Source: Chrysophaeum taylorii
Lineage: Eukaryota; Sar; Pelagophyceae; Pelagomonadales; Pelagomonadaceae
Assembly: GCA_029834535.1 (NCBI GenBank)
Contig: JAQMWT010000395.1
Coordinates: 1-50,802 of the forward strand
DNA length: 50,802 nt
Direction of reading: 5' to 3'
The notes under the pieces are model-generated. The model saw only the letters and a program-made list of their open reading frames with translations, searched no databases and had not been told where the DNA came from. The translations under genes were made by a program, and so were the position numbers. Of the stretch, positions 4,867 through 50,802 are shown piece by piece. The first letter of the stretch is position 1. Each line of letters opens with the position of its first letter.

Positions 4867-4877
4867 CGATTTGATGG

Positions 4878-13888: not shown

Positions 13889-14085
13889 TAGAGAACAGTA
13901 ATTTCAACTGTGCTACCCTTCAGCACAGTGAGAGCAGTGGTAGTCCGCCCTCGTTCTGTCTATAGCAACGAGGACAGCACGGTGTGGATAACACAGCGTT
14001 TTTCTGAATTAAAAATGTGCCAAAAGTGAGAGAGCTAACCCTAGGATAGGGGGGTACTAACCCTAAATCGAATTTTGTATCTCTA
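13889..14085 (-). repeat. Copia B 3' LTR
   Basis: 197 bases from TAGAGAACAG to GTATCTCTA on the plus strand, the reverse complement of the copia A LTR. It includes the CCTAGGATAGGGGGG and CTAACCCTAA blocks. The RNase H end and the conserved pre-LTR segment (GAACTCGGTGAGCGAAATCTG) lie on its right, so this is the 3' copy. Confidence 0.92.
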
Positions 14086-14127
14086 CGCCCTCATAGATTG
14101 AACTCGGTGAGCGAAATCTGGATCAAA

Positions 14128-17328: not shown

Positions 17329-18270
17329 GTCATGTTAGTGCGCGAGGGCAGTCCATGGGAGCGCGGATTGTCTGCTTGGGTCTTATGCAGCAGAGCAAAC
17401 GGGTGATAATACTCGGCGGCAATAGGCTTTCCTTCGATGCGGACACTGCGCAGGTTGAGGAGGCGAACGACAGTGCCTCTTGTATTTTCTTTGATTATGT
17501 TTTCCGCGAAGTTCCGCTGGTGTAGATGGCGACCGGTGATTTGAAACTGGATGCCGAGTTGTACCTTGGGCTGGTGGAAGGCTTCGGAGCGGAATGTGGA
17601 AAAGGCATCAGATGAGAGGATTTTCACACGTACATCGAATTCGACCTTAATCACATTGACCACGTAGAGGATGCTCGCCATAACGTCCTGCGCGTCTAGT
17701 TTCCTCAGGAAGTATACCCCTTTGTGTGCCAAAATAACACACACAATATGCATGATGTAACGAAAGCCACCATAGCATTTGCTGATACTCGGGTATGAGA
17801 CATCCATGTGGAGATGTTGGACAGGAGCATAGGCTAGTTCATCCTGTGACCAGGAAGTGTTCTTGTGACGGAAGCTGACATGCGATTGGCAGCGCTTGCA
17901 TTCGCTGCAGTCTTGCGGATACCGATCATCACCTGGGCGGAGATTCGTTACATTGGCGGCAATCGTGCGGCGAAGAATCTCTGGTTGCTGGTGGTGTATG
18001 CGGTGCCAGCGAGTGACCAAAAGCACTCTTTTTGCGTGCTGAATATGTGCCGGGCTTGTGCAAGGGGGGCAGAGCCGCGGTTGATGTCCGAGGAGGAGTG
18101 GATCGCTTGTCGACTCGGACTTTAGCAACTGTAGCCTCAGCGAGTAGCGTCTCGAGGTTTTTCGATTTGCTTGGCTTGCTGATCGCAGCATGGTGAGCAT
18201 CTGCAACGGCATTGAAGAGGGAGGTGAGGTTGAGGTCCTCCTCTGCTATAAGACGGCTGGTGATGTTCAA
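17283..18270 (-). pseudogene. pol: Copia B integrase
   Basis: The zinc-binding domain shows WHRIHHQQPEI, ECKRCQSH and the first catalytic aspartate in HLHMDVSYPSI. The second aspartate lies in KILSSDAF and the Glu in HQRNFAENIIKEN. The joint between the methyltransferase tail and the integrase N-terminus (SKSKNLETLLAEAT) is in one frame here, while copia A has lost a base at that spot. A frame change near 17930-18100 moves into the zinc finger. Unlike copia A, this integrase has no SINE. Confidence 0.85.
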
Positions 18271-18330
18271 TAAGAATTCTGCAACCTGGTTGATGTCTCC
18301 GGGACTAGGAAAGCCCTTGCGTGTTGTTGC

Positions 18331-20275: not shown

Positions 20276-20997
20276 GTAGCGGAGGGGGTTGTGCTTGCAC
20301 AGAGAGGTCCGCTGAGCCAGTGAATGCATATTGGACGACAGTACGCGGGAGGCTGATGAGTTCCGTCAAAAATATAGAATGATTCTGTAATTTTGCGAAA
20401 TCTAACATGTGGGATTGCGAACGTGTCTTTGCGACGTTCTGTGTGATGTGTGCGAGCTCATCCTTGAGGGACATTCTCGTTCCGGTGTGAAAACTAAGCA
20501 CAGCGCGGAATGTTTGCTTTGGATGGGATGGCAGGGACAATAGACCATTAGTTTGGCGATTGGCGAGAACTACTGCGGTTTTGCCTAGAAGCGTCTTATA
20601 ATCATGGGGGTCTGATGTCGAGGTGGTCAGAAGTTCATATAAGTAAGGTTCGTAGGGCAGTGGTGGGTCTGTTGCTAGTTGAGAGGTCGCTATAACCTGT
20701 AGACCTGGTCTGAATTGCGGGACGACCAGAAAGACGAGGTATAAGACGTAACCTGTGGGGTCTTTGATATCCTTTGAGGAGAGACCTGCGGCCTGCAAAT
20801 ACAACGGTTTGACACCGATGAAGTGGCTGGTTAAGGTGCCTCTGCCCATGCGGATGGTATGTTCGGGAATCCGGCGTATGGACTCGGGAACAAAATGTTG
20901 TATTGTGCGAGTGAAGCAAAATGATGCGCCACTGTCAATTAGAGAAATTTCAGTGCCGGGTCCATTGCACCCGTGTAGCCAGTTAGTCTTTGTGGGG
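20276..20997 (-). CDS. pol: Copia B aspartic protease
   Basis: Carries a canonical retropepsin-type active site LIDSGAS at about 20936, preceded by GCNGPGTE and followed by FCFTRTIQHFVPES, RMGRGTLTSH and the beta-strand block YVLYLVFLVVPQF. Compared with copia A it lacks six codons in the middle (after VIATSQL). It continues without a stop into methyltransferase motif I, which shows that protease and methyltransferase were translated as one polyprotein. The group II intron fragment sits immediately upstream and keeps the frame. Confidence 0.85.
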
Positions 20998-21306
20998 GTC
21001 AATTTCCTTAGGAAGCTCCACTGTACGTATAGGACTAGCCTTGTACAAATGTGGGTTCTTTGTCAGCTTTTTTAGTAGTTTCACAGCATCTTCCTTTTCG
21101 CTTTTAGTAGCCCATGTTTTTCCATCAACGCCAGGGGTATTTCTACCTTTATTAGACGTAACAATTGACACAGCTACATAAATAGCACTCCAAGACGTGA
21201 CTAGGTTATCTTGAAGCTGTTTGACTCTATTGAGGTCTTTCTCCTCGTATGCCGTTGCAATTTTAAACTGAAGATCTAGTACCTTTTTCTTTGCCAAAGC
21301 AAAGTC
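20998..21306 (-). other. Group II intron reverse transcriptase (maturase) N-terminal fragment, in-frame insertion
   Basis: Copia A reads straight from its gag-protease joint (TPEK) into KTNSLRGCNG. In copia B about 303 extra bases lie between two GTC triplets (20998-21000, 21304-21306). The insert encodes, in the same frame and sense, NRVKQLQDNL, TSWSAIYVAV, VTSNKGRNTPGVDG and SPIRTVELPKE, the diagnostic N-terminal and RT0 region of group II intron-encoded proteins. It looks more A/T-rich than its surroundings. Such introns live in organelle or bacterial genomes, so an organelle DNA fragment captured at a break is the simplest explanation. No catalytic RT motif is included. Confidence 0.85.
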
Positions 21307-21315
21307 CTTTCCTGG

Positions 21316-23607
21316 AGTGTAAGTGGCACAAAGAGTATCTGCGACTCTGGGGGAGATGGTCGATGAGGTCGGGAAATTCTTCATCGTGAGGCTTGGTGGC
21401 TGATTTGATAAGGTGTGGTTGGCGGCACAGGCGTCGTCGGCAACCATCAGCGAAAAAGCTTACTATGGTGCATAGCACGCATGTAGTCGCTGTGACGTTG
21501 TGCGTGATCTTCGGCGGAGTCGTCTTCATCATCAATTTCGGGGATGGTATCGTCGTAGAGGCCTAGGTGTCCGTGGTCGTCATAGAAACCGAGTTGGCCT
21601 TGGTCATCTTTTTCGTCGGCCGCGCCCTCATCTGGTGGATCATCCTGAGGATCGGACGATAGCACCTGAAGAAACTCGGCGGCATCGGAATCGGCCTCGG
21701 AGAGAAGTATCTCATCGGAGATAGTGGTGATGAGGTTGATGAGCTTGGTCATATGCTCCGAGTTGGACGTGTGTTGGCGACCGGCTTGACTCAGGTTCCG
21801 TATGGTCTGGAGCTTGCGACGAACATCACGGTGGGGGACCTTGAGTCGTTGGTCTGGAGTTGATGGCTTTGGGGGATGCGGTTGAGTGGGGAAAGTGACA
21901 TTGCGGAGGTGCGGGTGCTCGCGTTTGTCTGGGGTGACAGGAGAAGCACGGGGTTTTGTTTGTTTTTGGTTGGGGTGACAGGGGCGACCTTGGGCTTAGG
22001 GCTGTCATTTATATCGTAGTACGACGGGGAGCGAGGGTTTGGCGATTTTTTCGGGGGGGTCTTCTTCTGGTGGCGGGACATCTGTTTCTTTCGGTAGGCG
22101 TGTAGGTGTTGGATGATATCGGTGTCCTCATCTTGATCGAGGTTGGCTTCAGTGAGGAACATTGCAACAGCGTCGTTGGTTTCGGGGAGGCTTCAGCAGG
22201 ATCTGGCGGAATTTCATCTTCAGAGGGTGAGGTGTCATCATCATTTTCGGTGAAGTGGAGACCACGACGGCGGGAGCGAAAACGTGGATTATCTTAGTCC
22301 TTTGTCGGCAGACGACCGAAGTCTGTGACGAATCGTAATGGTTTGAAATTCAGAGCGGGGTGCGGCTTGAGATGAGCCCAAAAGTTGCGCTCGAAGGTGG
22401 AGATAACCGTGATGCGGGCGATCAACTTGGGAACGTGGTTTATCGCTTCTTTTTCTTCGTCGAGTAACAGCGAGTCGTTGGGGGTGCGAAGACAATTGGC
22501 AAGACGCGCGAAGCCCTTGATGTGGGTTGGGGCGCGGGAGTCAAGCAAGCTTGGAGGGTACTTGAACCGTAGCATTTGGTGGATTTCTTGGAGGATCTTG
22601 TCATCGGGAAGTTGGAGAGAGGCATCGTCCGTGATTTGACGAAGCTGTTGCTGAACGTGGCGCATATAATCGATATAATGCGCAGGCTCATGGATCTCAG
22701 GGTTGAACGGCGTGTCCAGGAAGGCATTATAAACATAATGCGCATGGTGGACGTGGTTCTGGCCCGTGTGCTTGTCAAGTGCGAGGCGGACTTGGAGCAC
22801 AAATTCGAGTCCTATCGGATGGGAGGATCCGAGTGCATCGATTTCGTCGTATGCTGGGTGCTTGACGGAGTCGCTACCGGCATGCAGGAAACGGCGAAAA
22901 AGGGGGTGCACGGTCTCGCGGAGGTACACGATGAAGTCGGCTTCTTTTCCTTGGAGGTGAGGTTGTGTGATCGGATACAATTTGCCTTGCGTCGTATCGG
23001 TCGTGTCTTTGTCTTGGTCTTTAAGTTATTGGAGTTTTGGCTCATAGACGTTCTCAAGGAAGTGTTTGCCGAACTTGCGGTAGACGCCCTTGTAGTAGAC
23101 GAAACGGGCTTGGAAATCTTGGGTGTTACCAGCAGTTGAGTGGGTATCGGGGTCCTTGTCATATTCCTTGATGCAGTGGCTTAGGAGAGCGTCAGCTAGA
23201 TCATTAGATCCGCGTAAGACGGATTCCCATGTGTAGAAGCCCTGAAGGAAGTATTGCGTTATGCCTGTTTCTCGTATAAGATGTTCGACGAGCACCTGCA
23301 TGACGCGAAACGAGAGCATTCGGGGGGTGATTTGAGCGGAGTCCATTGACTTGAGGACAGCGCTGGGTGGGTCACTAAAAGTGTTGGTCTTGTTTTTGGG
23401 ATCTCGTGGAGCTGGAGTGGGGGGAGCAGTCGCTGCGGCGACGGCAGGTGGTGTCTGCATGGCATTGAGTTGTGCTTGAAGTGCTTGTAGCGCTTGAGCT
23501 TGTGCTTGTATCATTTGATGTTGTGCTTGCATCTCCCTTGTATGCTTTGCCTCTATGCAAGCTTCTTGGTCTTTTATCTCCTTTTGGAGTTCTTGATTGG
23601 CTGGCAT
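21316..23607 (-). pseudogene. gag: Copia B gag
   Basis: Starts MPANQELQKEIKDQ at 23607, then a Gln/Met/Ala helical segment, a Pro-rich stretch (PPAVAAATAPPTPAPRD), and a conserved core seen also in A, D and E: DSAQITPRMLSF, ETGITQYFLQGFY, YPITQPHLQGKEADF, LDKHTGQNHVHHAHYVY and SRAPTHIKGFARLANCL. The C-terminal third is acidic and proline-rich. Frames change near 23030, 22290 and 21790, and the acidic segment ends in TGA overlapping the ATG of the next frame (TGATG at about 21447). I see no CCHC knuckle. Role: structural capsid protein, by position and homology within the window. Confidence 0.8.
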
Positions 23608-23691
23608 CTTGTTTGGTTCAGGAACGTCAGGGAGCGGAGCTCTTCTGGAAATCCCGGGACTCTGCTGATACCGGGACTGGAGCCCAATACC

Positions 23692-23886
23692 TAGAGAACA
23701 GTAATTTCAACTGTGCTACCCTCCAGCAGAGTGGGAGCAGTGGTAATCCGCCCTCGTTCTGTGTCTAACAACGAGGACAGCACGGTGTGAATAACGCAGC
23801 GATTTTCTGAATTAAAAAGTGCTAAGAATGAGAGAGCTAACCCTAGGATAGGGGGGTACTAACCCTAAATCGAATTTGTATCTCTA
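23692..23886 (-). repeat. Copia B 5' LTR
   Basis: 195 bases on the minus strand from TAGAGATAC to CTGTTCTCTA with TAGAGA/TCTCTA inverted ends. Gag begins about 85 bases inside it. The first interior bases are GGTATTGGGCTCCAG, close to the equivalent position in copia A (GGTATTGGGCACCAG), and are the likely primer region, though the tRNA is not identified. Confidence 0.92.
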
Positions 23887-23891
23887 TTGGG

Positions 23892-24623
23892 ATTCGGCTT
23901 TAAGCCTTCCGGAGTCGAAATGTGTCCCAGAAACTCGATATAATCTTTGAGGAGGTGAAACTTCGCTGCTCGTCCACTATATCCTCCTTGTGCTAAGTGG
24001 CACCGTTCTCCAATCAAGACTTGTAAGTGACGATGGAGGTCGTCCGATCCCATCATAATGTCGTCGACAAACGCGACCAAGTCCTTGTACATCCATTTCG
24101 ATAAATCGCTGGCCATCTGCTTGCAGAAGAGAGCTCCTGCTGTTTTCACTCCCAGAGGCAAGCGCAAGAAACTGTGTGCTCCGAGTGGGCTAACCATCGT
24201 GACAGCGTCCTGAGCGGCGGTGTCCAAACGCAGGTTGTGGTATCCCCATCGAATATCAATGCACGTCCGCCAACGGCGCATGGCAAGGAAAGCCAAAGCA
24301 TCATATTGACGAATGTTCGGCCAGCTATCATTGACCAACTGATCGTTGAGCTGACGTAAGTCAACTGCAGCACGAAAAGCGTTTGACGTCCCGATCTCTG
24401 CTCCTTTCTTGGGCAGCATCAGCACAGGAAATCCCCACGGAGAATTCGCCGGTCGGATGACTCCATCGCGACACCACTCGGTGATCTGCTTTCTGAGACA
24501 ATCGAGCTTTGCTGGCGTCAACCGGTAAGGCGTCATCTTGATCGGTCGTGGGTTTGCGTCTTTAAATCGTAGAGAAACCGGCGGCGAGTCCACGGGTCTC
24601 ATAATCGGGTCAAAAAAGGCCAC
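23892..24623 (-). pseudogene. pol: GA reverse transcriptase, N-terminal and palm part
   Basis: Gypsy-type RT: SLRFKDANPRPIKMTPYRLT, DGVIRPANSPWGFPVLMLPK, RAAVDLRQLND, IDIRWGYHNLRLD, LPLGVKTAGALFCKQM and the catalytic FVDDIMMGS at about 24060, followed by IEFLGHISTPEGLKPNP. At that point copia B interrupts it; the continuation is at 13870-13290. The stretch itself is one uninterrupted frame with the aspartates retained, so this part of GA is well preserved. Confidence 0.92.
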
Positions 24624-25100
24624 GCGTATTGCGCGCAGTGGTTCAACATCATCTTCGCATCTTCATCTAAATGCGGATTGTCGGGAATTCCCAGTTCGTG
24701 AGCGACTTTCTCAACTTCTTCTTTCATCGGAAATTTGACTTTTATCGCTTCGTTATCCTTGACGTGCTCTGGAGTCTGCGGCAGCGGCGCTCCGTCCGCA
24801 TCGCGCGGTGCATCATTCCACGGCACATCGAACTTTTCTTCGTATTTGAATCTCACTTCAGGATGGCTCTTATTGGTCTTTTCACCTTTGACGCGCACAC
24901 TCGGTTCGCTCCTCGCTTTCGGCTCCCGATCAGGCTCAGGATCCGGCGGAACGTCCAATTTTGGTTGTCGGGGGGGGGGCAGCATAAGAAGTATGAGCCG
25001 TCCCTGGCGCATCTGTTGGAAGCGGAAGCAAATGTACTTCTGGCGGTTTCCATTTGGTGCTATTCCGGAGATCTGTTGTTGACACCCACTTAACGACACG
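24624..25100 (-). pseudogene. pol: GA linker between methyltransferase and reverse transcriptase
   Basis: A charged, proline-rich segment (QPKLDVPPDPEPDREPKARS, KGEKTNKSHPEVRF) followed by an acidic helix (EEVEKVAHELGIPDNPHLDE) that leads directly into the reverse transcriptase. A frame shift at about 24600 separates it from the RT frame. It looks like the flexible pre-RT region common in gypsy polyproteins. Nothing catalytic is visible. The right end overlaps another frame coming from the methyltransferase C-terminus. Confidence 0.6.
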
Positions 25101-35668: not shown

Positions 35669-35720
35669 TGTGGCGGCTGTAAAAACGTTCCCGACCCGCT
35701 GACGTTGGGGGTACTCACCA
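35669..35720 (-). repeat. GA 5' LTR, inner part (split by copia A)
   Basis: TGTGGCGGCTGTAAAAACGT through GTACTCACCA, identical in layout to 10482-10533. The LTR is cut at CACCA by copia A and resumes at 45461. Confidence 0.9.
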
Positions 35721-35922
35721 TAGAGATAGAAAATTTGAATTAGGGTTAGTACCCCCATATCATAGGGTTATGGTTAGCTCTCTTACTTTTAGCACTTTTT
35801 GATTTAAGAAAACGCTGTGTTATTCACACCGGCTGTCCTCGTTATCGGAGACACATACGACGGCAGATTGCCACTGCTCTCTCTCTGCTGAAGGGTAACA
35901 CAGTTGAAATTACTGTTCTCTG
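35721..35922 (+). repeat. Copia A 5' LTR
   Basis: 202 bases from TAGAGATAGAAAATT to ACTGTTCTCTG. It shares the TTAGGGTTAG block, CTCTTACTTTTAGCAC and TTATTCACACCGGCTGTCC with the 3' copy, from which it differs by a short indel near 35770 and scattered substitutions. The interior begins GGTATTGGGCACCAG, the likely primer region. Confidence 0.93.
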
Positions 35923-36008
35923 GGTATTGGGCACCAGTCCCGGTATCAGCAGAGTCCCAGGATTTCCAGAAGAGTTCCGCTCCCTGACGTTCCTGAACCA
36001 GAACAAGA

Positions 36009-38161
36009 TGCCTACGAATCAAGAACTCCAAAAGGAGATGAAAGATCAATAGGCAACGCATCAAAAAGAGATGACCAACATGCAAGCCAAGCACCAACAA
36101 GACATTCGAGATCTTCGCGATATGCAGAGACAAATGCAAGCTACGCAAGGAGCACCACCACCTGCCGTCGCTGCTGCGACTGCTCCCCCCACTCCAGCTC
36201 AACATGACCCTAAGCACAAGGCTAACACCTTTAGTGACCCACCTAGCGCCGTCCTCAAGTCAATGGACTCCGCCCAAGTCACACCCCACATGCTTTCGTT
36301 TCGCGTTATGCAGTTGTTCGTCGAACATCGGATGCCCGAAACAGGCATAACGCAATACTTATTGCAGGGCTTCTACACGTGGGAATCCGTCTTACGCGGA
36401 TCAAACGATCTCGCTGACGCTCTTCTCAGCCACTGCATCGAGGAATACGATAAGGACCCCGACACCCACTCTACCGCCGGGAACACGCAAGATTTCCAAG
36501 CCCTTTACGTCTACTACAAGGGTATTTACCGCAAGTTCGGCAAACACTTCTTGGAGAACGTCTACGAGCCAAAGCCCCAAGAACTTAAAGACCAAGACAA
36601 GGACACGACCGATACGACGAAAGGAAAGTTGTATCCGATCACACAACCTCACCTCCAAGGAAAAGAAGCCGACTTCATCGTGTACCTCCGCGAGACAGTG
36701 CACCCCCTCTTTCGCCGTTTCCTGCATGCCGGTAGCGACTCCGTCAAGCACCCAGCATACGACGAAATCGACGCACTCGGATCCTCCCATCCGATAGGAC
36801 TCGAATTTGTGCTCCAAGTCCGCCTAGCACTTGACAAGCACACGGGCCAGAACCACGTCCACCATGCGCATTATGTTTATAATGCCTTCCTGGACACGCC
36901 GCTCAACCCGGAGATCCACGAGCCTGCGCATTATATCGATTATATGCGCCATGTTCAGCAACAACTTCGACAAATTACAGACGATGCCTCTCTCCAACTT
37001 CCCGATGACAAGATTCTCAAGGAAATCCACCAGATACTTCGGTTCAAGTACCCCCGAGCTTGCTTGACTCCCGCGCCCCAACGCATATCAAGGGCTTCGC
37101 GCGTCTTGCCAACTGTCTGCGTACTCCAAACGACTCGCTGTTACTCGACGAAGACAAAGAAGCTATAAACCATCTTCCCAAGTTGATCGCCCGCATCACG
37201 GTTATCTCCACCTTCGAGCGCAACTTTTGGGCTCACCTTGAGCCTCATCCCACCCTGAACTTCAAGCCGTTGCGATTCGTCACTGACTTTGGTCGTCTGC
37301 CGACTAAAGAAAAAGACAATCCACGTTTTCGCTCCCGCCGTCATGGCCTCCACCTCACCGAAGACGATGATGACACCTCTCCCTCTGAAGATGAAATTCC
37401 ACCAGATCCTGATGAAGCATTCCCCGACACCAACGACCCAGTTGCCATGTTTCTCACGGAAGCCAACCTCGATGCAGATGACGACACTGATCTCATCCAA
37501 CATCTTCACGCCTATCGAAAGAAGCAGCTCACACGCCACCCCAAGAAGCCTCCACCAAAAAGCCTCCAAATCCTCGCTCCCCGTCGTACTATGACATCAA
37601 TGACAGCCCTAAGCCCAAAGGCTCCCCCTGTCACCCCAACAAAGAACAACACAACCCCCGTGCTTCTACTGACCCCCAGACAAACGCGAGCACCCGCACC
37701 TTCGCAAGGTCACTTTTCCCACTCAACCGCATCCACCAAAGCCACCTACTCCTGACCAACGATTTAAGGTCCCCCTTCGTGAAGTTCGTCGCAAGCTCCA
37801 GACCATACGGAACTTGAGTCAAGCCGGTCGTCAACACACGTCCAACTCAGAGCGTATGAACAAGCTCATCAACCTCATCACCACTATCTCCGATGAGATA
37901 CTTCTCTCCGATGTCGATTCTGATACCGCCGAGTTTCTTCCGGTGCTATCGTCCGATCCTCAGGATGATCCACCTGATGAGGGCGAAGCCGACGAAAAAG
38001 ATGACCAAGGCCACCTCGGTTTCTATGATGACCACGGACAGCTAGGCCTCTACGACGACACCATCCCCGAAATCAATGATGAAGATGACTCCGCCGAAGA
38101 CTACGCACAACGTCACAGCGACTACATGCGTGCTCTACACCAGAGTCAGCTTTTTCGCTGA
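36009..38161 (+). pseudogene. gag: Copia A gag
   Basis: ATG at 36009 (MPTNQELQKEMKDQ) is followed by a TAG about 14 codons later, where copia B reads through. The long frame then runs from about 36071: KHQQDIRDLRDMQRQMQA, PPPAVAAATAPPTPA, the core (ETGITQYLLQGFYTWESVL, YPITQPHLQGKEADF, LDKHTGQNHVHHAHYVY) and, after a shift near 37110, HIKGFARLANCLRTPNDSL, FERNFWAHLEPH and an acidic Pro-rich tail. The last segment (37814-38161) is Asp/Glu-rich and ends in a TGA that overlaps the ATG of the protease frame. Structural capsid protein by position; no zinc knuckle seen. Confidence 0.82.
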
Positions 38162-39017
38162 TGGTTGCCGACGACGCCTGTGCCGCCAACCACATCTTGC
38201 TCAATCAGGCACCAAGCCTCACGATGAAGAATTTTCCGACCTCATCAACCATTTCACCCAGAGTCGCAGATTTTCTTTGTGCCACTTACACTCCAGAAAA
38301 GACACCCACGAAGACTAACTCGCTGCGCGGATGCAATGGACCCGGCACTGAAACTTCTTTAATTGACGGTGGCGCATCATTTTGCTTCACTCGCACAATC
38401 CAACACTTTGTTCCCGAGTCCATACGACGGATTCCCGAACACACCATTCGTATGGGAAGAGGCACCTTAACCGGCCACTTCATCGGTGTCAAACCGTTGT
38501 ATTTGCAGGCCGCAGGTCTCTCCTCAAAGGATATCAAAGACTCCACAGGTTACGTTTTATATCTCGTCTTTCTGGTCGTCCCGCAATTCAGAAAAGGTCT
38601 ACAGGTTATAGCGACATCTCAGCTCAAAGCTCTGAACGTCCAAGCGACCGACCCGCCACTGCCACACGGACCATACTTATACGATCTTATGAACACGTCA
38701 ACCGCTGATCCCCACGATTATAAGACGCTTCTAGGCAAAACCGCCGTAGTTCTCGCCAATCGCCAAACTAATGGTCTATTGTCCCTGCCATCCCATCCCA
38801 AGCAAACATTCCGCGCTGTGCTTAGTTTTCACACCGGAACGAGAATGTCACTCAAGGATGAGCTCGCACACATCACGCAGAATGTCGCAAAGACACGCTC
38901 GCAATCCCACACGTTAGATTACGCAAAGTTACAGACCATTATATATTTCTGTCAGAACTCAGCCGCCTCCCGCGTACTGTCGTCCAATATGCATTCACTG
39001 GCTCAACGGACCTCTCT
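38161..39017 (+). CDS. pol: Copia A aspartic protease
   Basis: The ATG at 38161 shares its A with the preceding TGA. The active-site block is LIDGGASFCF (Asp at about 38365; copia B has the more usual LIDSGAS). Then come HFVPESIRRIPEHTIRMGRG, FIGVKPLYLQAAGL, a hydrophobic strand pair (YVLYLVFLVVPQF) and NGLLSLPSHPKQTF. The C-terminal 80 residues link to the methyltransferase; a frame change near 38930 is absent from copia B, where the two domains are joined in frame. Role: processing of the polyprotein. Confidence 0.85.
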
Positions 39018-40650
39018 GTGCAAGCACAACCCCCTCCGCTAAACTCTGCCATTATTGCAGGTGGACTCCACCAAGAAGGTTTTGACTCTTTTCGCAAACG
39101 CTTCGACAAACGGATTACTGTCGTGGTCACCTGCGAAATTAACCCTATTATGCGCGCCCGCGCGCAACAACTCTTTCCGCATGCTCAACATTATGCGGAT
39201 CTAAGAAAGCTCACTGCCGCTCTACAAACCGGCAAAATACGACTACCTCAACTCGACTTGGCAGTCTTCACCTTGCCGTGTCAACATCGGAGTGTAATGA
39301 AAGGATATGACGGCTATGCCACTCCGGTGACCGCCGACCTTTTCGTCAAAGAACAAATCCGCTTTGTTCGTTGCACCCTTCCGACCTACACCATTGTCGA
39401 GAACGTACCCCCCAACCCCCGAACTTATCACGAGTACACTGAACTCGCCAAATGCTATCAGCGCCTCGGTTACTTCCGACACTCCGGTGTCTACAATGCC
39501 TCCGCTTTTGGTGATGTAATAAGCAAAAACCGCTACCTCGCTGTCTATGCCCGACACCCGCTCACCGATTACAACCTCGAGAAAACCGCTTCTCCTTGGT
39601 TAATATCTCCTCCGAGCATGGTTCCCCTCCTGGACCCCAGTCACACTATCCCCGACGATCTCTGGATCGCCAACCCCGCCCTTCATGGCACAGTGACACG
39701 CTCCACCTTGGACTATTACCAGAACAAGGCCACATTTTCCTACAAACCCGCCAACGCCTCTAAACTCTCGATTTCCGAAAATGCACGCTTCTGCCAACTG
39801 CTTGCACGCTTCAACAAGCCCTTCACGGATATAGGTCTAGACGCAGACGGCACTCCCTACGCTTCCATGACCAACATCTCCCATATCTTGGTTTTCACAT
39901 TGCTGCACAACCATTTGTCGCAACATCCAACTCTCGTTGCTTGTAACACGCTCCGCTGTTTTCACGCATCAGAGTCACCATGTGCTTACCATTTGGATGG
40001 AGCCATCACCGGCACTGTCGCTACTGCCGTCGCATGTGGCTACTTCCCGCGCGCCTCCCTCACCCTACATTCCAGGCCCCCTCGAATATTGGACTGTTCA
40101 AACCAACCCGCAGTCTTCTCCCCAACGCACGCCTTTTCCCTGGATGTTCCCAAGGGCACCGCCTTTCTGGTCGTCGCCTACACCAACTCCTTTGCCGCCG
40201 CTCACAGCTGCTCGCGCCCCTCCACATGGGTCCACTACATGAATCGCTCGCATCCTGACTTTGCCGCGATCGACTCACGAGGGCGAATTACTCTCGATGA
40301 CCCCAAGGGACTCATAATGTCCGAAGCACGTCCCACTTACGCGGACTACGTCGGCCACATCGGCGACACGCTCCAGAAAAGCACCAAGTGCTACTCGGTC
40401 ACTGGCTCGTACCCAACCAACACGAGCTACTCCAACGCCTTGCTGCTGATCTCTCCCGACCACATCCGCTACGCGACTCTCAACGAAATCGCGAAGTTTG
40501 GACACCACTCGGACCCGGGACTGCTCCGCCTGTTCCAACAGCACCCGCCGTACTTCGCGTTTACGGCACTGGCCAACGCCGTCCCGCACAACATGCTGCA
40601 GGCCAAGTACAGCGCTGTCCTCGCACTCCACGAATCGTACCACCATGCGA
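39018..40650 (+). CDS. Copia A C5 cytosine-DNA methyltransferase domain
   Basis: Uninterrupted domain of about 540 residues. Motif I SAIIAGGLHQEGFDSF (residues 10-25), II VVVTCEINP, III YADLRKL, IV LDLAVFTLPCQHRSVMKGY with the catalytic Cys at residue 88 (39276-39284 encodes PCQ), VI TIVENVPPN (ENV at 128-130), VIII NASAFGDVISKNRYLAVYA (160-178), then a target-recognition region of over 300 residues, motif IX-like YATLNEIAKFG (485-495) and motif X ALANAVPHNM (517-526). The order is that of standard m5C methyltransferases, which methylate cytosine C5 using S-adenosylmethionine. It sits between protease and integrase of the retrotransposon polyprotein, so it would be made with the replication machinery. 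The catalytic residues are intact. Motif I is somewhat unusual (AGGLH instead of AG.GG). Confidence 0.88.
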
Positions 40651-42050
40651 ACTTTCACATCGAATGGGCAACCATACGCAATGGCATTCCCAGCCCCGGA
40701 GACATCAATCAGGTTGCAGAATTATTCTTGAACATCGCCAGCCGTCTCTTAGCAGAGGAGGACCTCAACCTCAGCTCCCTCTTCAATGCCGTAGCAGATG
40801 CTCACCATGCTGCGATCCGCAAGCCAAGCAAATCGAAAATCTCGAGACGCTACTCGCCGAGGCCACATTTGCCAAAGTCCGAGTTGACAAGCGACCCAGC
40901 CCCCCTAGCGCTTCGACTGCCGCTCTGCCCCCCTTGCACAAGCCAGGCACCATTCAGCACGCGAAAAGAGTGCTTTTGGTCACTCGCTGGCACCGCATCC
41001 ACCACCAGCAACCAGAGATTCTTCGCCGCACGATTGCCGCCAATGTAACGAATCTCCGCCCAGGTGATGATCGGTATCTGCAAGACTGCAGCGAATGCAA
41101 GCGCTGTCAATCGCATGTCAGCTTCCGTCACAAGAACACTTCCTGGTCACATGATGAACTAGCCTATGCTCCTGGCCGTCATCTCCATATGGACGTCTCA
41201 TACCCGAGCATCAACAAATGCTATGGTGGCTTTCGTTACATCATGCATTTTGTGTGTATTATCTCGGCACACAATACCCTGATCGCCGACTACGGTTGCG
41301 ATGGAGGACGGTGCCTCATGAATCCTGAGCCTTGCGAGGGCATCCGCCCTCCCGGCGTAGGTTGGCACCTAGTCGCCTCCCGGGCGGGCCGGTTGGCAGC
41401 CGGAACGTTCGCAGTGGGACGGGGTATGGCCGGGGGGCGAAGACGGAAGGTTATCGACGAGTTGGTTGTCAGTCACATTGCTGTCTCCTCGTCGCATGGC
41501 GACAAGCTTGATGGTCACTCTCCGCCGACCGACCTTTCGGCGCTCCTCGTCTACAGGCCCGTGATTCCGGACTGGCTCCTGTCGGTCCGGCCTGGCTCCC
41601 ATGCTCGGGAGAGGTCTGAAGTTAGTTAGTTAGTTACACAAATGGGTATACTTCCTGAGGAAACTAGACGCACAGGACGTTCTGGCTGGCATCCTCTACG
41701 TGGTCAATGTGATTAAGGTCGAATTCGATGTTAGTGTGAAAATCATCTCGTCTGATGCCTTTTCCACGTTCCGCTCCGAAGCTTTCTACCCGCTCAAGGT
41801 GCAGCTCGCTATCCAGTTTCAAATCATTGGTCGCCACCTACACCGGCGGAACTTCGCGGAAAACATCATAAAGGAAAACACACGAGGCACTGTAGTTCGC
41901 CTCCTCAACCTTCGCAGTGTCCGCATCGAAGGAAAGCCTATTGGCGCCGAGTATTATCACCCGTTTGCTCTGCTGCATAAGATCCAAGCCGACAATCAGC
42001 GCTCTCATGGACTGCCCTCGCGCACTAACATGACCTGCACCGTCCCCCAG
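40651..42050 (+). pseudogene. pol: Copia A integrase, interrupted by a SINE
   Basis: After a helical connector (AELFLNIASRLLAEEDLNLS) and a one-base loss near 40838 relative to copia B, the zinc-binding domain appears: TRWHRIHHQQPEIL, SECKRCQSHVSF. The first catalytic Asp is in HLHMDVSYPSINKCYGGF. The SINE at 41275-41636 interrupts the core; after it come KIISSDAFSTFRSEAF (second Asp) and HRRNFAENIIKENT (Glu). DNA integration activity is destroyed by the insertion, but the DDE residues are recognisable on both sides. Confidence 0.87.
41275..41636 (+). mobile_element. SINE copy 3 (in copia A integrase)
   Basis: 362 bases with CACAA on both sides (41270-41274 and 41637-41641). The body runs GATCGCCGACTACGG to GAGGTCTGAA and ends in (GTTA)n. 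It is nearly identical to copy 1 (11419-11777). Copia B lacks the insertion and shows the empty site (GCACACAAAGGGGTATAC). It has an open frame across most of its length on this strand, which is incidental because it is not shared with copy 2. Confidence 0.88.
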
Positions 42051-43430
42051 CGCATCATGTCACCCATGGCACCGCTCCTGAAGCTCCTTCCCTTTGGCGA
42101 ACCTGTCACCTTTGTCTATCCTCACAGTCACAAATTGGAACCCTCCAGCGTCTCCGCCTCTTATCTTCATAGCAACAATTACCTCCCGAACCTCCCCGGC
42201 ACAGACCGATTTATCCGTGATGTTCATAGCTCTATCCTGCTTGTACATCAGGGGCGATATGGGAAAATCGTCACCTCTAACGACTTCCACGTTGATGCAG
42301 ACATGCCAGTCAACCGCAACAAGGAGATCGAACGGATCAAAGCACTCACGCAGATCCCAACAGAGGCACGGCAAGAGGACCCGCTTCCGGCTATAAGCGA
42401 ACAGCAAATGCCGGAATTCATACAGGCATCGAAAAATGAGGGCGAGACTCAAGACCACGACCAGGACGACAAACCCAACGATGATGACGAGCACAAAGAA
42501 CCGGATCCAAGTCCCGTCAGCGACGAGACACCTGAACAGGATTTTTCGTTCCTCAACCGGCCACCTCCACCGGATGGTAGCATTCCGATGCCCAAACGAA
42601 AGGATCGCCTAGAGGTTGTTCTCGACGATTCAGGTTTTACTCCAGTTTTCGTGCATCGCAACCAGAGTGACAAACTCAAGGCAGATCTCAAGGACGAGCG
42701 CGGATTCCGCATTCCCAAGGATCAACTCTATATCGTGAAACGTGTCGACGATGGAAAACTTTTCACCAGACGCATTATCGCTTCAGAGTATGGTCGCAAC
42801 TGGAAATACCAGCAGGAGCAATCCACGGCTCGCGCCACAGCCAACATGCCCAGCACATTTATGTTCCTCATCAGTGTCAGCGCTCTGCACCAGGGCCATG
42901 CCGCCAGCATCGCATCTGATCTCAACATTAGAAGGGATGCTATGCCGCCAAATGATGTCCCGAAAGGATGTCTCCTAGCAAATACCACACAAGACTATGG
43001 TATCATGGGCGGCACTGCACTGGATCTGCAGAGAGAAACCGACGCAGAACTCTTGTACGTCGACTTCCGAAGGAAGCCGTGTCACTCATCTGTATTGGTT
43101 GACCACCTCGACAACAACAGTTCTGTTCTCGAGAACTATGTGTGCCACGACGAACTGTCACAGGCAGAGTATTATGCGCGCCAATGGAACCAAGAATTCT
43201 GTTGTATGGGCTCCTCTCGTTTGTGGGACATCTCAGCGCATCAGCACTACCTGTTAGCTTCTCGTCACAGGCATGCCTTCATGCACGATTCTGGCGAAAT
43301 CGGACGCCTCTTTCTGAGTCAGAGTGATCCGAATCAAGATATTCTCCAAGAAGTCATGGACTACGACTTGCAGCACATCGATCATGTCGTGTTACAACTC
43401 GTGACTGCGGAAGATATTGTCTATGAGCCT
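42051..43430 (+). CDS. pol: Copia A integrase-to-RT linker region
   Basis: Open continuation of the integrase frame, collinear with copia B 15922-17328: FGEPVTFVYPHSHKLE, HQGRYGKIVTSNDFHVDADM, an acidic stretch (DHDQDDKPNDDDEHKE), PPPPDGSIPMPKRKDRLEV and an unidentified module (YIVKRVDDGKLFTRRII, YGRNWKYQQEQ, SALHQGHAASIASDLNI, ETDAELLYVDF). Copia A lacks a few residues of the acidic stretch present in B. The preserved reading frame in both copies argues that the module matters to the element, but I cannot assign a role. Confidence 0.7.
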
Positions 43431-45217
43431 GAGAAGATTGTCGAACTCAAAGGACTCAGCGAAGAAGACAAGCTCAAGCATATAGCTTCGATTTGCAAGG
43501 AAATTGAAGGCTTGTGCTCCAACGGCGTCCTTAAGCATGAACCTTTACCCCCAGACCGTTCGTCTATCTCGACGAAACTCGTGCTGAAGATCAAGTATTA
43601 TGCTGACGGCACCCCAGACCGCCATAAAGCTCGTCTAGTTGCCCGAGGTTTCTTGGCACGTGTCGGCATTGACTTTTATGCCACATCTTCACCGACCGCG
43701 ATGCTCGCCACCAACCGGTTCTTGCTCGCCATCGCTGTGAAGCACAGGCTCCCGGTCGCGTACGCAGACATTCCCCAGGCATTCATCCAATCGGCACTCG
43801 ATCGCCCGGTATGGATAGACTTACCTCTAGGAATACGTGTCTCGCACAACCTTATCCAGCAGATACAGAAAAACCACCCAGAGTCCAAGTTAGCTCTCCG
43901 ACTCTTCAAGGCTCTCTATGGTCTCAAACAGTTAGCTTTGTTGTGGAACATTAAGCTCGACTCGTCTCTTCGACAACATAAGTTCGAACGCTCACAAGTC
44001 GATACTTCATCTATTTCAGTTGGGATCGATCTATCAACAGATGGGTTCTCCTATCCGTCTCCGTCGATGACCTATTGAGCACTGGTACAAACACTGCCAA
44101 AATCACGTCTCTTCGCACTGCTCTGGAGAAGGAATATGGCAAAGGTACGTGGCACGATAACATCAGATCCTTCCTTGGTATCGATGTACACTACAACGTC
44201 TCCGCTGGTCACCTTACTATGAATGTAGCCGCGAAGATAAACAAGATGCTCGCCGAGCATAAACTCAACCTCCATACTACTGACGTCCCCTACTCGGACA
44301 TTCTCACTCAAAAACCTTCTGCTAAGCTTCTCTCCGACTTGGCTCCCACTTTAGAAATATTACGCAAAAATTTTCCTCACTACTGTGGCACTAGTATTTA
44401 CTTGTCTGTCACATGTCGCCCAGATATCACCACTTTGTGCAACAAATGCTGCAAGGGTATGCACAACCCTGAGCAGACCCATCTTCTGCACTTATATGTT
44501 TTACTTCGCTATTTGAAGGGTACTCCGAATGATTCTCTCGACTATTCATCCGACAGCCCCTCTATTACGCCCTTTATTCAGCATCTGATCGGAAACTACC
44601 CAGAGTTGCATCACCTTCGTTCGCCCATTATTTGTTTTACTGATGCCAGTTTCGCTGACCGTTCTGACCCTCGCTTAAGATCTCATTCTGGTGCATGTAT
44701 TTTCGTATTTGGCAATCTCGTATTCTGGTCTAGCAAACGCCAAACTCTTACTGCCAAAAGCACCATGGAAGCCGAACTCATCGCCGCTAGCGCAGCCGCT
44801 GATGAATGTCAATGGTTCCACAAGATCTTCTCCTCTCACCCTTATCTGTTTTCACGTGATCAAGCTCACGCTATTCCCCTGCTTATTGACAACGCTAGCG
44901 CATTACATGTCGCTAATCACCCTAAAGTCAGTGCTCCTTCTCGTCATATCAATTTACGAGAATTTCGCATTCGTGACTACCAGGCCAACTCGGTCATTCG
45001 TCCTCTCTGGTGTCCTACTCACTACCAGGTCGCCGATCACTTTTCCAAGCTTCTTCCACGCAACTTATTCCACAAGTTCAAAAACGCCTACGGTGTTCAC
45101 TCTACATCTTCTTCACCACCATCTCATCAAGTTGCTCTTTCTGCTACTCTTCCACCGTACGACTCCGTCCAGAACACTCTCTATGTTCTTGTCGATGGCA
45201 AGTCGCTTCCTGCTTAG
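43431..45217 (+). pseudogene. pol: Copia A reverse transcriptase and RNase H
   Basis: RT entry EEDKLKHIASICKEIEGL, then KHKARLVARGFLARVGIDF-type sequence (here DRHKARLVARGF), YADIPQAFIQSALDRPVW and LFKALYGLKQLALLWN. A one-base loss near 44010 relative to copia B sends the frame to a TGA at 44076-44078 just before the catalytic SVSVDDLL, which is readable in the other frame. That frame (44075-45217) continues with FLGIDVHYNVSAGHL, LLRYLKGTPNDSL and RNase H: CFTDASFAD, STMEAELIAAS, LIDNASALHVANHP, PTHYQVADHFSKLLP. All RNase H acidic residues are present. Confidence 0.92.
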
Positions 45218-45259
45218 TTTGATCCAGATTTCGCTCACCGAGTTCAATCTGTGAGGGCG

Positions 45260-45455
45260 TAGAGATAGAAAATTTGAATTAGGGTTAGTCCCCCCATATC
45301 CTAGGGTTAGCTCTCTTACTTTTAGCACCTTTTGATTTAAGAAAACGCTGTGTTATTCACACCGGCTGTCCTCGTTATAGGAGACAGATACGAGGGCAGA
45401 CTACCACTGCTCTCTCTCTGCTGAAGGGCAACACAGTTGAAATTACTGTTCTATA
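45260..45455 (+). repeat. Copia A 3' LTR
   Basis: 196 bases, preceded by the conserved segment TTTCGCTCACCGAGTTCAAT and the purine-rich GTGAGGGCG, a likely plus-strand primer. It ends ACTGTTCTATA, followed by the CACCA duplication. Confidence 0.93.
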
Positions 45456-45460
45456 CACCA

Positions 45461-45735: not shown

Positions 45736-47728
45736 ATTACATCCGTGCAGAGAGTGAGTCTTGGTGTGAGACTTACCTGGAGTGAAAACAGTGCATATGA
45801 AGTCTGCTACTTTGGAAGAAATTGTCGATGAAAGTGGAAATTTGTCCATCGGGAGGCTTGGTGCCTGGTTCAGTAGAGTTTGGTTGGCGGCACAGGCGTC
45901 GTCGTCACCCGTTACCGAAAAGTTGGCTTTGATGAAGGGCGCCTATGTAATCTTGATGACGTTGTTCATAATCTTCAATTGAGTCTTCGGGTTGGGCCTC
46001 GGTCTCGGAAACTTGATCATCGTATATAGTCGAGTTGACCATGACCATCGTACGTGGAGCCGTCGTCTATAACGCCCTCTGCAGCTGGATCATCCGGCGA
46101 ATGGTCGGAGGAGAGAAGCTGGAGAAGTTCGGCGGCGTCGTTATCTGCCTCAGAGAGGAGGATCTCGTCGGAGATGGTAGTGATGAGCTTGGTGAGTTTG
46201 GTCATACGATCAGGATTGGAGGTGTGTTGCTGGCCGGCTTGACTGAGGTTGCGGATAGTCTGTAGCTTGCGGCGGACATCACGAAGGGGAACCTTGAACC
46301 GTTGATCAGGAGTGTGAGGTATTGGAGGATGGGTTGGGTGGGAAAGGTGACTTTGCGGAGATGCGGGTGTTCGCGTTTGTCAGGGGTGACAGTGGGAGCA
46401 CGCGGATTTGGCTTATGCTTGGTGGGGGTGACCGGTGTTGCTTTGGGCTTTGGACTGTCGTTGATGTCCTAGTATGACGGCGAACGAGGATTGGGGGGCT
46501 TTTTGGGTTTCTTGACGTGGCGTGAAATTCGTTTCTTTCGATAAGCGTGGAGATGTGGATAAGAGGCTCATCCTCATCTGGATCGAGTTCAGCTTCAGTA
46601 AGGAAGGCGTCGACGAGGTCGGCGTCGTCGGGAGAGTCCTTATCTGGATCCGGAGATATTTCATCTTCAGGGGGTGAAGCGTCATCGTCATCTTCGGTGA
46701 GGTGGAAACCAAGGCGGCGAGGACGAATTCGTGGATTGTCTTTGTCTTTGGTGGGCAGACGACCGAAGTCCGTGACAAAGCGGAGAGGCTTGAAGTTGAG
46801 CGAATGGTGGGGCTTTAGGTGAGCCCAGAAGTTGCGCTCAAAGGTGGAGATGACCGTGGTGCGTGCAATCAACTTTGGCAGGTGATGGATTGCGGCTTTA
46901 TCTTCGTCGAGAAGCTGAGAGTCGTGTGGAGTGCGAAGACAGTTGGCAAGACGAGCGAAGCCTTTGATGTGTGTGGGGGCGCGCGAGTCGAGAAGACTGG
47001 AGGGGTATTTAAAGCGGAGGATTTTGTGTATCTCCTCTTTGATGGTTTCGTCGTGGAGTTGGAGTGAGGAACCGTCGGTGTTTTGACGGAGTTGTTGCTG
47101 GATGTGGAGCATGTAGTCGATGTAGTAGGCGGGTTCATGGAGCTCCGGGTTGAAGGGAGTGTTCAGATACGAATTGTACACGTAGTGGGCATGGTGGACG
47201 TGGTTTTGTCCAGTATGCTTGTCGAGTGCGATGCGAACTTGGTGAACAAATTCGAGACCAATGGGGTGAGTCGACCCGAGCTTGTCAATTTCGTCGTGTG
47301 CTGGATGCTTGACGGAATCACGACCGGTGTTCAGGAAACGGCGGAACCGAGGGTGCACAGTCTCGCGGAGGTACACGATAAATTCTGCTTCTTTGTCCTT
47401 AAGGTGCGGTTGCGTGATGGGGTAAAGCTTGATTCCGGATTCTTTTTCTTGATTTTGGAGTTCCGTCAGCTTGACCTTGTAGACGTGTTCGTATAAGGTT
47501 TTGCCGAACTTGCGGTAAATGCCTTGGTAATATACCGTTACCTTGAAAGTCTTGCGTGTTGCCGTTGGTGGAGTGAGTGTCGGGATCTTTGTCGTACTCA
47601 GCGGTGCAGTGGCTAAGAAGAGCGTCGGCGCTGTCGTTGGAACCGCGCAGAACAGATTCCATGTATATAAGTTCTGAAAAAATATTGAGTGATGCCGGTT
47701 TCTGGCATGAGGTGCTCGGTGTCGAGGT
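45736..47728 (-). pseudogene. gag: Copia D gag, C-terminal two thirds, to the gag-protease joint
   Basis: From the right: ETGITQYF, then the conserved core (LYPITQPHLKDKEAEF, GLEFVHQVRIALDKHTGQN, YLNTPFNPELHEPAYYIDY), SRAPTHIKGFARLANCL, FERNFWAHLKPH and an acidic tail (LTEDDDDASPPEDEISPDPD). Smaller pieces near 46205-46017 (LITTISDEILLSEADNDAA) and 45850-45736 (VADFICTVFTPGKS, HSLHGCNGP) reach the point where GA inserted. The protease continues at 10481. Frameshifts near 46310 and 46000. It is more diverged from A and B than they are from each other. Confidence 0.82.
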
Positions 47729-49035
47729 CTGAAGAACGATAGCGACAAAAGTGCCTGGGATGACGTGCGTTAGACGTTGCCACTGAGGATCGCAGCGGGG
47801 CAAAGATAGCGGAAACAAGCTGGTACATGATGGCGGTGTACCGACGTCTGATGAGAACATGGCCTTTGGGCAGATATGTTGCATGGTGACCAGGGTATGA
47901 CGATGGTCGGAGTCGACAGAATCCAAAACAGGCGTAAACAGGTTTGATGCGAACGTGGGTGTTTGGTTTTTGTGGCGCGAGCAAGTTGCCATGGGCACGA
48001 CCGCGTCCTGTACGCGAAGATGGAAGACTTCGGACGCGCCAGCGGTGTAAGGAACGAACACAGGTAGACCAGGCTGCTGTATGCCAGCCTGCTGTGACAG
48101 ATAAGAAAGTGGCCCGTTTTCGCAGTCGCAAGAACGAAATTGCCATATGGGCCAACGTTGGAGGAGCAAGCGGCGAGCTTCGCTTGTCATACTCGAATAG
48201 GCTGCGGTAGAGGTGGAGACAGTGGCAAAACAGTTGTGGCACGTAAGAACGTTGCAGATAGCGTCGCGGGTGCTGAACACGGAATTCACGTCGATAGCAT
48301 GGGATTGGTCAAGAGTAGAGGTTTCTCCGAGGGCGAGCACGCGTGATGCAAAGACCAACGTAAGAGGTGAGATCAAGATCATTGACGTCAGTGAAAGCGC
48401 GGAAACGGAGGAAAGGCTTGGTAATGGCCAATGCAATGACGAGGGTGCGCCACAAGATCATCATCAACGACCAGAACGAGACGTAGAAGGACGGTAGAAT
48501 TGAGCACGAGCTTGTAATGGCAAGTGTCACCAGATCCGCGGACGAAGCCACAGTCATTGACGAGAAAGCGTGCCAAATAAAGCCACTAATTACGACAAGC
48601 TTGTTTGCAACCATACCAAGAGCGACGGAGCTTGTAAACGATTTTGGAACCATCGGTGGGTTGTGGGAGCTTGAATAAAGGCGGAGCTGACATCCAACTT
48701 GTGCAAATCCCAGTCATGAACAGCGACAAAGGTTAGAAAGAAACGGATCGTGACGATGTTGGCAACCGGTGACGATGTTGGCAACCGGTGAGTAGGTGTC
48801 ATGATAATCAATGCCGTGAACCTGCGTGTAACCGCGGACAACGAGGCGAGCCTTGTACGATTTGAAGTGGCCAGAGTCATACTTCTTGCGGATGATCCAC
48901 TTGAGAGTAAATGTTGCCAGAAAACGTCGAAGGAAGGCGCACAACATCCCAGCAACCAAGCTGACCAAGAGAGCTGTATTCGTTAGCGATGGCTTGCAAC
49001 CAGCCAGGACGCTCAGGATTGGTCGGAGCTAAAGC
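47729..49035 (-). pseudogene. pol: Foreign Ty1/copia reverse transcriptase fragment inserted in copia D gag
   Basis: Interrupts D gag between MLSYHV and the segment preceding ETGITQYF. Read right to left it is a classical copia RT: NPERPGWLQAIANEYSSLG, KWIIRKKYDSGHFKSYKARL, VVRGYTQVHGIDYHDTYSPV, then HDWDLHKLDVSSAFIQAP in a shifted frame, WHAFSSMTVASS-type damaged sequence, a VVDDDLV catalytic remnant near 48470 and YVGLCITRARPRRN. It is closer to plant/animal-type copia RT than to the A/B family. A 19-base unit (GTGACGATGTTGGCAACCG) is tandemly duplicated at about 48750-48787, which explains one frame break. The part left of about 48250 is not identified. No LTRs or target duplication were found for it. 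Confidence 0.75.
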
Positions 49036-49577: not shown

Positions 49578-50802
49578 ATGGGAAATGCCCCACCTCCAAC
49601 CGTCGCTGCTGCGACTCCTCCTCCTATTCCGGCACCTCAAGATCCTTCCTCCAACACCAAACCAGCTCACCACCTTCACAGACCCCCTAGTTCCGTTCTC
49701 AAGTCCATGGATGGCGCTCAAGTTGCGCCTCAGATGCTCTCCTGCCATGTTTGACAACTGTTCACAGAGCACCCCGTGCCAGAGACCGGCATCATCCAAT
49801 ACGTCAAGAACCTGCACATGGGCACCCGTCCTACGTGGCTCCAACGACTTTTCTGAAGCTCTTCTTAGGTGTATTCACCGAATACGACAAGGATCCTCAC
49901 CTCCATGCCACTGTCGGTAATACCCCAGACTTCCCAGGTCTCAAGATATACTACCAAGGCGTTTACAGCACGTTCGGCAAGGACTTCTACGAAACGCCAC
50001 GAAACGAAGTTCCAAGAGCTCGAACATCTCGCTGGGTGCGCTATCCCATCACACAGCCGCATCTGAAGGGTAAAGAAGCAGACTTCGTGGTCTACCTCCG
50101 TGAGACCGGGCACCCCTTTCCTCCGCTTCCTACACGCGCGATTCCGTTGTCTGCTTACGACGACATCGACAAGCTTGGGTCGACTCACCCAATTGGTCTC
50201 GTGTTTGTTAATAAAGTTCGTATAGCGCTCGACAAGCACACCGGCCAAAATCACGTCCACCACGCCCATTACGTCTTCGATTCGTATTTAGAAGCCCCAT
50301 TCAACCGGAGTTCCATGAGCCCGCTCACTACGACCACATGCACATGTTCAACACCAACTCCGCCAATCACCGATGATCCTTCGCTTCAACTCAGCGACCA
50401 CACCTTATGATGACCTACAAATGTCGCTTCAAATACCCTCCAGTCTCATTGACGCGCCCCTACCCACATTAGGGCGCCCGTCTCGCCAACTGCCTTCGCA
50501 CACAAATGACTCTCAGCTTCTTCGACGAACAAAGCGGCAATCATCACGCCAAAGCTCATTGCTCGCACCGTCATCTCCACCTTTGAGCGGAATTTTTGGG
50601 CGCATCTCAAGCCCCACCCAAGCGCCAACTTCGACCTCTTCGCTTCGTCACGGACTTCGGCCGTCTGAACACCAAGGACAATCCTCGCGTCCGTACTCGG
50701 CGCCGTGGTCTCCACCTTAACGAAGATGACGATGAAGCTTCACTCCTGAAGATGAGGTCCCACCTGATGAAGATGACGACCCTCCCGACGACTCCGACAT
50801 CG
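49578..50802 (+). pseudogene. gag: Copia E gag, fragment running off the window
   Basis: Begins abruptly at GNAPPPTVAAATPPPIP because copia D inserted here; the N-terminus must lie to the left of D, outside the window. Recognisable blocks in changing frames: PPSSVLKSMDGAQVAPQML, YPITQPHLKGKEADFVVYLR, STHPIGLVFVNKVRIALDKH, TGQNHVHHAHYVFDSYL, and near the end the region equivalent to FERNFWAHLKPH. A TGA at about 49752 and several frameshifts show it is inactive. It is the oldest layer of the nest. Confidence 0.82.

Follow-up and report, generated by a model that had tools for sequence, protein, structure and literature searches.

The window, a 50,802-bp stretch of the Chrysophaeum taylorii genome (contig JAQMWT010000395.1), contains two damaged copies of one family of LTR retrotransposons of the Ty1/copia type. 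In the Pol of this family a C5-cytosine methyltransferase (MTase) domain, some 540 residues long, sits between protease and integrase. Element A occupies positions 35721-45455 on the forward strand. It is bounded by LTRs of about 200 bp that are 92.5% identical over 199 columns (5' LTR at 35721-35921, beginning TAGAGA; 3' LTR at 45260-45455) and by a perfect 5-bp target-site duplication, CACCA (35716-35720 and 45456-45460). LTRs usually end in TG...CA; those of this family, in the window copies and in the genomic copy C96, start with TAGAGA and end with TCTCTA or a variant (TA...TA). The internal region consists, on the same strand, of a gag-like region in several frames, named from its position alone (36053-38161), a protease named from its motif LIDGGASFCF (38359-38388, in frame 38089-39042), the MTase domain (39042-40655), the integrase zinc-finger motif HRIHH (40991-41005, in frame 40301-41629) and an RVT_2 reverse transcriptase recognized by Pfam in two frames (43545-44266; frames 43545-44003 and 44036-44266). 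The backbone is assigned to Copia because of the RVT_2 match and the location of the integrase before the reverse transcriptase. The D-S/G-G-A-S motif of the protease is in place, and the protease gives no Pfam match. The integrase of element A is split by a SINE-like insert some 370 bp long (41266-41633, forward strand, ends approximate, from comparison with C96), and the protease, the MTase and the zinc finger of the integrase each use a different frame. The first-pass annotation, made from the letters of the sequence, had described one undamaged frame with protease and integrase on either side; this holds for the MTase of copy A, but not for its protease and integrase, which are in other frames.

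Element B (13889-23886, minus strand) has LTRs at 13889-14085 and 23692-23886 that are 92.4% identical, and its flanks, CTGGG and TTGGG, agree at four of five bases. It is more damaged than element A, with the MTase distributed over several frames: an N-terminal half that matches PF00145 (19729-20220), a middle part in frame 19028-19804 (19322-19728, ends set by eye) and a C-terminal part (18346-19017), all on the minus strand. A SINE-like insert roughly 300 bp long (approximately 19018-19321, by eye) breaks the C-terminal part. The same arrangement, in frame with the protease, had been claimed for this copy; it applies only to the start of the MTase (motif I), after which the frame changes and the insertion follows. 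Similar SINE-like repeats are present in the integrase of one element and in the MTase of the other.

In element A the domain reads without stops over 538 residues, within a 728-codon frame (38862-41048). A Pfam search with that frame, the check proposed at the outset, returns PF00145 above its cut-off (29 bits against a gathering cut-off of 22), and the isolated domain scores 29-29.9 bits against the same cut-off (E 5.1e-7); the match spans approximately motifs II-VIII only. PF00145 is matched by 13 of 14 genomic copies of the domain at E ≤ 0.1, TIGR00675 likewise by 13 of 14 (30.3 bits, far under its own cut-off of 100.65), and the PHROG MTase families 116 and 363 by all 14 (best E 7.4e-12). 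A profile of 41 non-redundant phage C5 MTases, drawn from 80 loci fetched of which 78 were long enough, gives the window domain 24.1 bits, while the highest of 200 shuffles reaches 0.6. Comparison of the family profile with this phage profile by hhalign returns 94% and E 9e-8 over columns 25-175, with a score of 61.7 that 100 column shuffles do not approach (≤ 25.0). The single domain sequence finds no PDB match at E ≤ 1; the family profile retrieves six PDB sequences, all of them C5 MTases (E 0.12-0.23 each), and aligns the family PCQ with that of M.HhaI. Structure prediction, also proposed initially, yields a Rossmann-type MTase fold, from an alignment that included the 41 phage MTases. Predicted confidence in this domain model is low over residues 1-20 (pLDDT 54-60), and a model of all 538 residues that was built on 14 near-identical family copies alone reaches a pLDDT of 27. 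Taken together, the profile matches and the fold model make it almost certain that this Pol domain is a C5-cytosine MTase. Protein-database searches returned no relative with the single sequence (E ≤ 0.001, 7993 candidates scored), with the profile (E ≤ 0.01, 7995 candidates scored) or with the polyprotein region (E ≤ 0.001, 7994 candidates scored), and scans of IMG/VR with the family, with the N-terminal half shared by three copia lineages and with the third of these lineages (see below) found none either.

The clear motifs of the domain are II (E32), III (D53), IV (PCQ, residues 79-81), VI (ENV, residues 120-122) and the final arginine of VIII (R164). Motif IV, as LPCQ, lies at 39273-39284 with the catalytic Cys80 at 39279-39281, motif VI at 39399-39407, and the motif VIII-like SKNRYLAVYAR (residues 161-171), with its invariant R164, at 39522-39554. 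The motif I-like AGGLHQEGF (residues 6-14, 39057-39083) retains the GG, but its first part departs from the full FxGxGG, and the profile matches begin downstream of it. Segments resembling motif IX (residues 476-486) and motif X (residues 510-515), together at 40467-40586 on the forward strand like the others, were placed by eye. Residues 466-538 score 1.6 bits against a C-terminal profile, a value reached by 2 of 300 shuffles; the whole C-terminal part (residues 176-538) scores -1.0 bits, which 30 of 300 reach. Thus, of the ordered series I-X originally read from the sequence, motifs II, III, IV, VI and the arginine of VIII stand, motif I is reduced to its GG, and IX and X are weak by shuffling. 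About 300 residues without known relatives separate motifs VIII and IX, the region that forms the target recognition domain in known C5 enzymes. Across 19 aligned copies, five of which contain stops, motif IV retains P in 18, C in 19 and Q in 19, the ENV glutamate is kept in 17 and Arg164 in all 19.

The one-frame layout that is lost in the window is real elsewhere in the genome. Copy C96, with LTRs and a perfect 5-bp duplication (CTCAC), has a 578-codon frame in the gag-like region and a single 1952-codon frame that comprises protease motif, MTase, integrase and reverse transcriptase; a comparable frame in copy C314 is 1868 codons long. In a Pfam search the C96 stretch matches PF00145 at residues 349-476 and rve at residues 1016-1110 (17.7 bits, under the cut-off of 32.6), followed by the reverse transcriptase (PF07727). 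The integrase part matches chain W of PDB 7z0h, titled "Integrase" and presumably that of Ty1, at E 5e-4. With the PF00145 match, the C96 frame supports the first-pass reading of a C5 MTase in the protease-integrase slot of a copia polyprotein.

The family is numerous. In the host genome (70.8 Mb, 697 contigs) at least 91 stretches match the domain, with the best 80 of 799 candidates scored and some copies yielding more than one stretch; at least 18 of the 91 cover 500 or more of the 538 residues without a stop. The pooled dN/dS of the domain is 0.19 over 14 copies that are stop-free in the domain, a few of which contain short frame-shifted stretches (median pair 0.20, range 0.10-0.62), and it lies at 0.13-0.30 in every 60-residue window. 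The flanks give 0.11 on the integrase side (three copies) and 0.14 on the protease side (five copies). Purifying selection has maintained the domain along with the remaining parts of Pol.

A homologous domain is also present in a second copia lineage. In a search with the family reverse transcriptase, 131 of 134 matches show at least 67% identity and the next three 42-44%; two of these three loci were read, and both have the domain between protease and integrase. It scores 42.0 bits against the family domain, with 1000 shuffles at or below 6.8. Because a lineage with a reverse transcriptase this divergent has the domain in the same slot, the capture of the MTase is, judged from sequence, old. 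These data bear on the view that the domain is a captured gene fragment in decay that has no role, for which the damage to both window copies and the lack of an outside relative in the protein database (7993-7995 candidates scored, E ≤ 0.001-0.01) could be cited. The pooled dN/dS over 14 copies is hard to reconcile with decay, however, and the conserved catalytic residues and the homologous domain in a lineage with a reverse transcriptase only 42-44% identical also speak against it, so that such a passenger is very improbable.

The second lineage is mostly degraded, and its motifs are altered: the best copies (L052, L053, L055 and L058) have ECT in place of PCQ, and ENV is replaced by EEM. The cysteine is kept in six of the seven copies read. 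Against the phage MTase profile the lineage scores -1.6 bits, and the highest of 100 shuffles reaches 0.9. Since even the best copies have ECT, catalysis may not be what selection acts on in this lineage.

A third lineage, which includes L051 and L065 (4840-5619, minus strand), has a reverse transcriptase 34% identical to that of the family and is abundant, with at least 148 genomic matches, mostly at 90% identity or more, the best 147 of 962 candidates having been scored. In the same slot it shows the motifs SPCTNRN, EMTPP, QARER and IANAIP, with EMT in place of ENV, and in several copies the two halves of the domain follow each other without a break in an open frame. Its dN/dS is 0.05-0.08 in 8 of 10 pairs, at a dS of 1.1-2.5 that is near saturation; one close pair gives 0.50, and the tenth yields no value. 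The match to PF00145 (E 0.19) is below the Pfam cut-off. An apparently strong homology of this lineage (tblastn E 1e-21 to 1e-23) was rejected as inflated by a shared SINE-like tail; in L053 the tail of such a repeat matched dozens of genomic places. With the tail removed, the third lineage scores 6.8-12.6 bits against the second (0 of 1000 shuffles as high for four of five copies, 1 of 1000 for the fifth) and 6.2-16.1 bits against the family (0 of 1000 for all five). A third-lineage profile gives 6.1 bits against the second lineage (0 of 1000 shuffles) and 3.4 bits against the family (3 of 1000), and the reverse comparison, family profile against five third-lineage copies, is equalled by 3, 97, 168 and 225 of 1000 shuffles in four copies and gives no match in the other. 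By hhalign the third lineage scores 18.9 against the phage MTases, inside the range of 100 column shuffles (highest 29.3), and the phage profile does not beat the shuffles for four of five copies. Since the basis is motif order, position and weak scores, the third lineage is a probable carrier of a homologous MTase-like domain. In an alignment of the three lineages, Cys80, Glu120 and Arg164 (motifs IV, VI and VIII) are invariant in 13 of 13 sequences.

The altered lineages give some weight to the possibility that the domain is a DNA-binding or structural module ahead of the integrase, such as a pseudo-methyltransferase or a target-site reader, for which methyl transfer is inessential. Such a module would fit the position directly before the integrase in Pol, the retention of the domain in the second lineage despite the changes of PCQ to ECT and of ENV to EEM, and the strong selection (dN/dS 0.05-0.08 in 8 of 10 pairs) on a probable relative that has EMT. 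However, a purely structural role would not need the three invariant residues, and in the window family the cysteine is present in 19 of 19 copies and the ENV glutamate in 17 of 19. This alternative is considered rather unlikely.

The host contributes its own enzymes. A genome-wide search with PF00145 gives at least 57 matches (introns ignored, best 123 of 474 candidates scored). Two of these, at loci L001 and L002, are host enzymes, a DNMT2 (E 3.9e-39 to the human enzyme) and a long protein resembling DNMT5 (E 3e-143 to PDB 7r76; 7r77 and 7r78 are titled DNMT5); all nine other sampled matches come from the element family. A chlorophyll-binding domain (PF00504, E 1.2e-13), whose best PDB matches are antenna proteins of the VCPI, FCP and PCPI type, lies on the opposite strand some 180 bp ahead of the DNMT2 frame. 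It indicates an algal host with antenna proteins of the chlorophyll a/c type, probably an ochrophyte or haptophyte; a perkinsid or dinoflagellate host was rejected, since the exact spliced-leader pattern had 0 matches. One study reports DNMT5a from diatoms, pelagophytes, dictyochophytes, haptophytes and other groups, and describes a diatom in which loss of the enzyme goes along with methylation being lost globally (PMC9998398). Element DNA is not depleted in CpG (observed/expected 1.01-1.04 versus 1.26 and 1.46 in two host loci) and therefore bears no footprint of long-lasting CpG methylation.

The best explanation of these observations as a whole, held with about even confidence, is that the Pol MTase of this copia family, which selection has maintained, methylates cDNA or target DNA. 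The likelier of several mechanisms, itself a tentative proposal put slightly below even, is methylation of the cDNA before or during integration. The MTase would be translated within Gag-Pol and enter the virus-like particle along with the other Pol enzymes (protease, integrase, reverse transcriptase), where cytosines of the new cDNA, or of the DNA at the integration site, would be methylated before or during integration. A new copy would thus arrive with marks resembling those of host DNA, and the host DNMT5, an enzyme with a maintenance role in other organisms, could then propagate them. Several observations weigh against this proposal: element DNA shows no CpG depletion, motif I is diverged and motifs IX and X are weak, and the changed catalytic motif of the second lineage leaves room for a structural role.

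The copia particle also contains genomic RNA and the primer tRNA, and the enzyme might methylate one of these there, much as tRNA is methylated by DNMT2. Its synthesis together with the reverse transcriptase of the particle and the common fold of DNMT2-type enzymes would suit an RNA substrate, and RNA methylation is suggested for a LINE-borne enzyme by de Mendoza et al. (PMC5890265). An RNA target is nevertheless considered improbable.

The proposal of DNA methylation can be extended, in a form that is considered unlikely, to a single capture before several copia lineages split. The MTase would then have become a standard Pol domain of an entire copia clade in this group of algae, in which one lineage would remain canonical-looking while others, one of them among the genome's most abundant copia families, would have diverged beyond profile detection; the elements would supply de novo methylation, and DNMT5 would maintain it. 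The elements are a possible de novo source because the clear non-element C5 MTases seen in the intron-blind search (best 123 of 474 candidates) are DNMT2 and DNMT5 only. Many RVT_2 matches, among the matches listed, have no MTase-like match nearby. In a host with DNMT5, selfish DNA as a supplier of de novo methylation becomes a testable idea. Element-borne cytosine MTases reverse the usual view of methylation as a weapon of the host against transposons. With at least 18 near-full, stop-free copies and the diverged relatives, canonical, altered and cryptic forms can be compared in one genome.

C5 MTases are known in LINE, DIRS and Gypsy elements, and the Copia elements of Symbiodinium are described as lacking a DNMT (de Mendoza et al., 2018; PMC5890265). 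Capture by retrotransposons in dinoflagellates and charophytes had already been named in the first-pass annotation. The DNMT borne on the Pol of a Symbiodinium DIRS element has de novo activity on CG, and methylation of cDNA is the role proposed by the authors (PMC5890265). KnitGypsy-Dnmt3 of Klebsormidium nitens likewise has a C5 MTase inside an LTR-type Pol and is also under purifying selection, with a Ka/Ks below 0.2 against the pooled value of 0.19 here; it is a Dnmt3-related Gypsy element of a charophyte host, whereas the present family is Copia and its enzyme is placed as a C5 MTase only (PMC5890265). SymbioDIRS-Dnmt3 and SymbioLINE-Dnmt are also retroelement C5 MTases present in many copies, the DIRS one in Pol, but their backbones, with a tyrosine recombinase in SymbioDIRS, differ from Copia (PMC5890265). 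The family of C. taylorii thus shares with the 2018 group an MTase in a retroelement protein, but not the LINE, DIRS or Gypsy backbone.

One sentence of a further paper puts some DNMT3s in LTR Copia and DIRS elements (PMC12344493). It gives no architecture and cites the 2018 paper, which describes Gypsy, so that the wording "LTR Copia" may be a slip or refer to an undescribed case. Searches of openly licensed papers turned up no Copia element described with an MTase in the protease-integrase slot. C5 MTases borne on Pol are already known (DIRS, Gypsy), and within that literature the Copia setting is new. Compared with the usual Ty1/copia element (Gag-PR-IN-RT-RH), the family has RVT_2, integrase, LTRs, 5-bp duplication and domain order in common, but about 540 additional residues between protease and integrase and LTRs ending in TA...TA. 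By contrast with the free-standing M.HhaI, DNMT1 and ZMET2, its MTase is part of Pol, has a diverged motif I and contains, between motifs VIII and IX, about 300 residues that lack known relatives. Other accessory functions described in mobile elements include an N4/N6 MTase in a DNA transposon of Ectocarpus (PMC12477816), TET in fungal transposons (PMC12730594) and further accessory domains (PMC6338049).

The remainder of the window holds a few other features. Two forward frames, 2373-3851 (492 aa) and 4875-7862 (995 aa), have no Pfam match at E ≤ 0.01. Because Ty3/gypsy-like RNase H and RVT_1 matches lie on both sides of element B (13256-13864 and 23868-24662, minus strand), this copy looks, from its sequence context, nested in a gypsy element. 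Fragments at 46306-47769 (minus strand) and 49691-50410 (forward strand) resemble by eye the gag-like protein that both elements encode, and are therefore taken as parts of further copies at the right end of the window.
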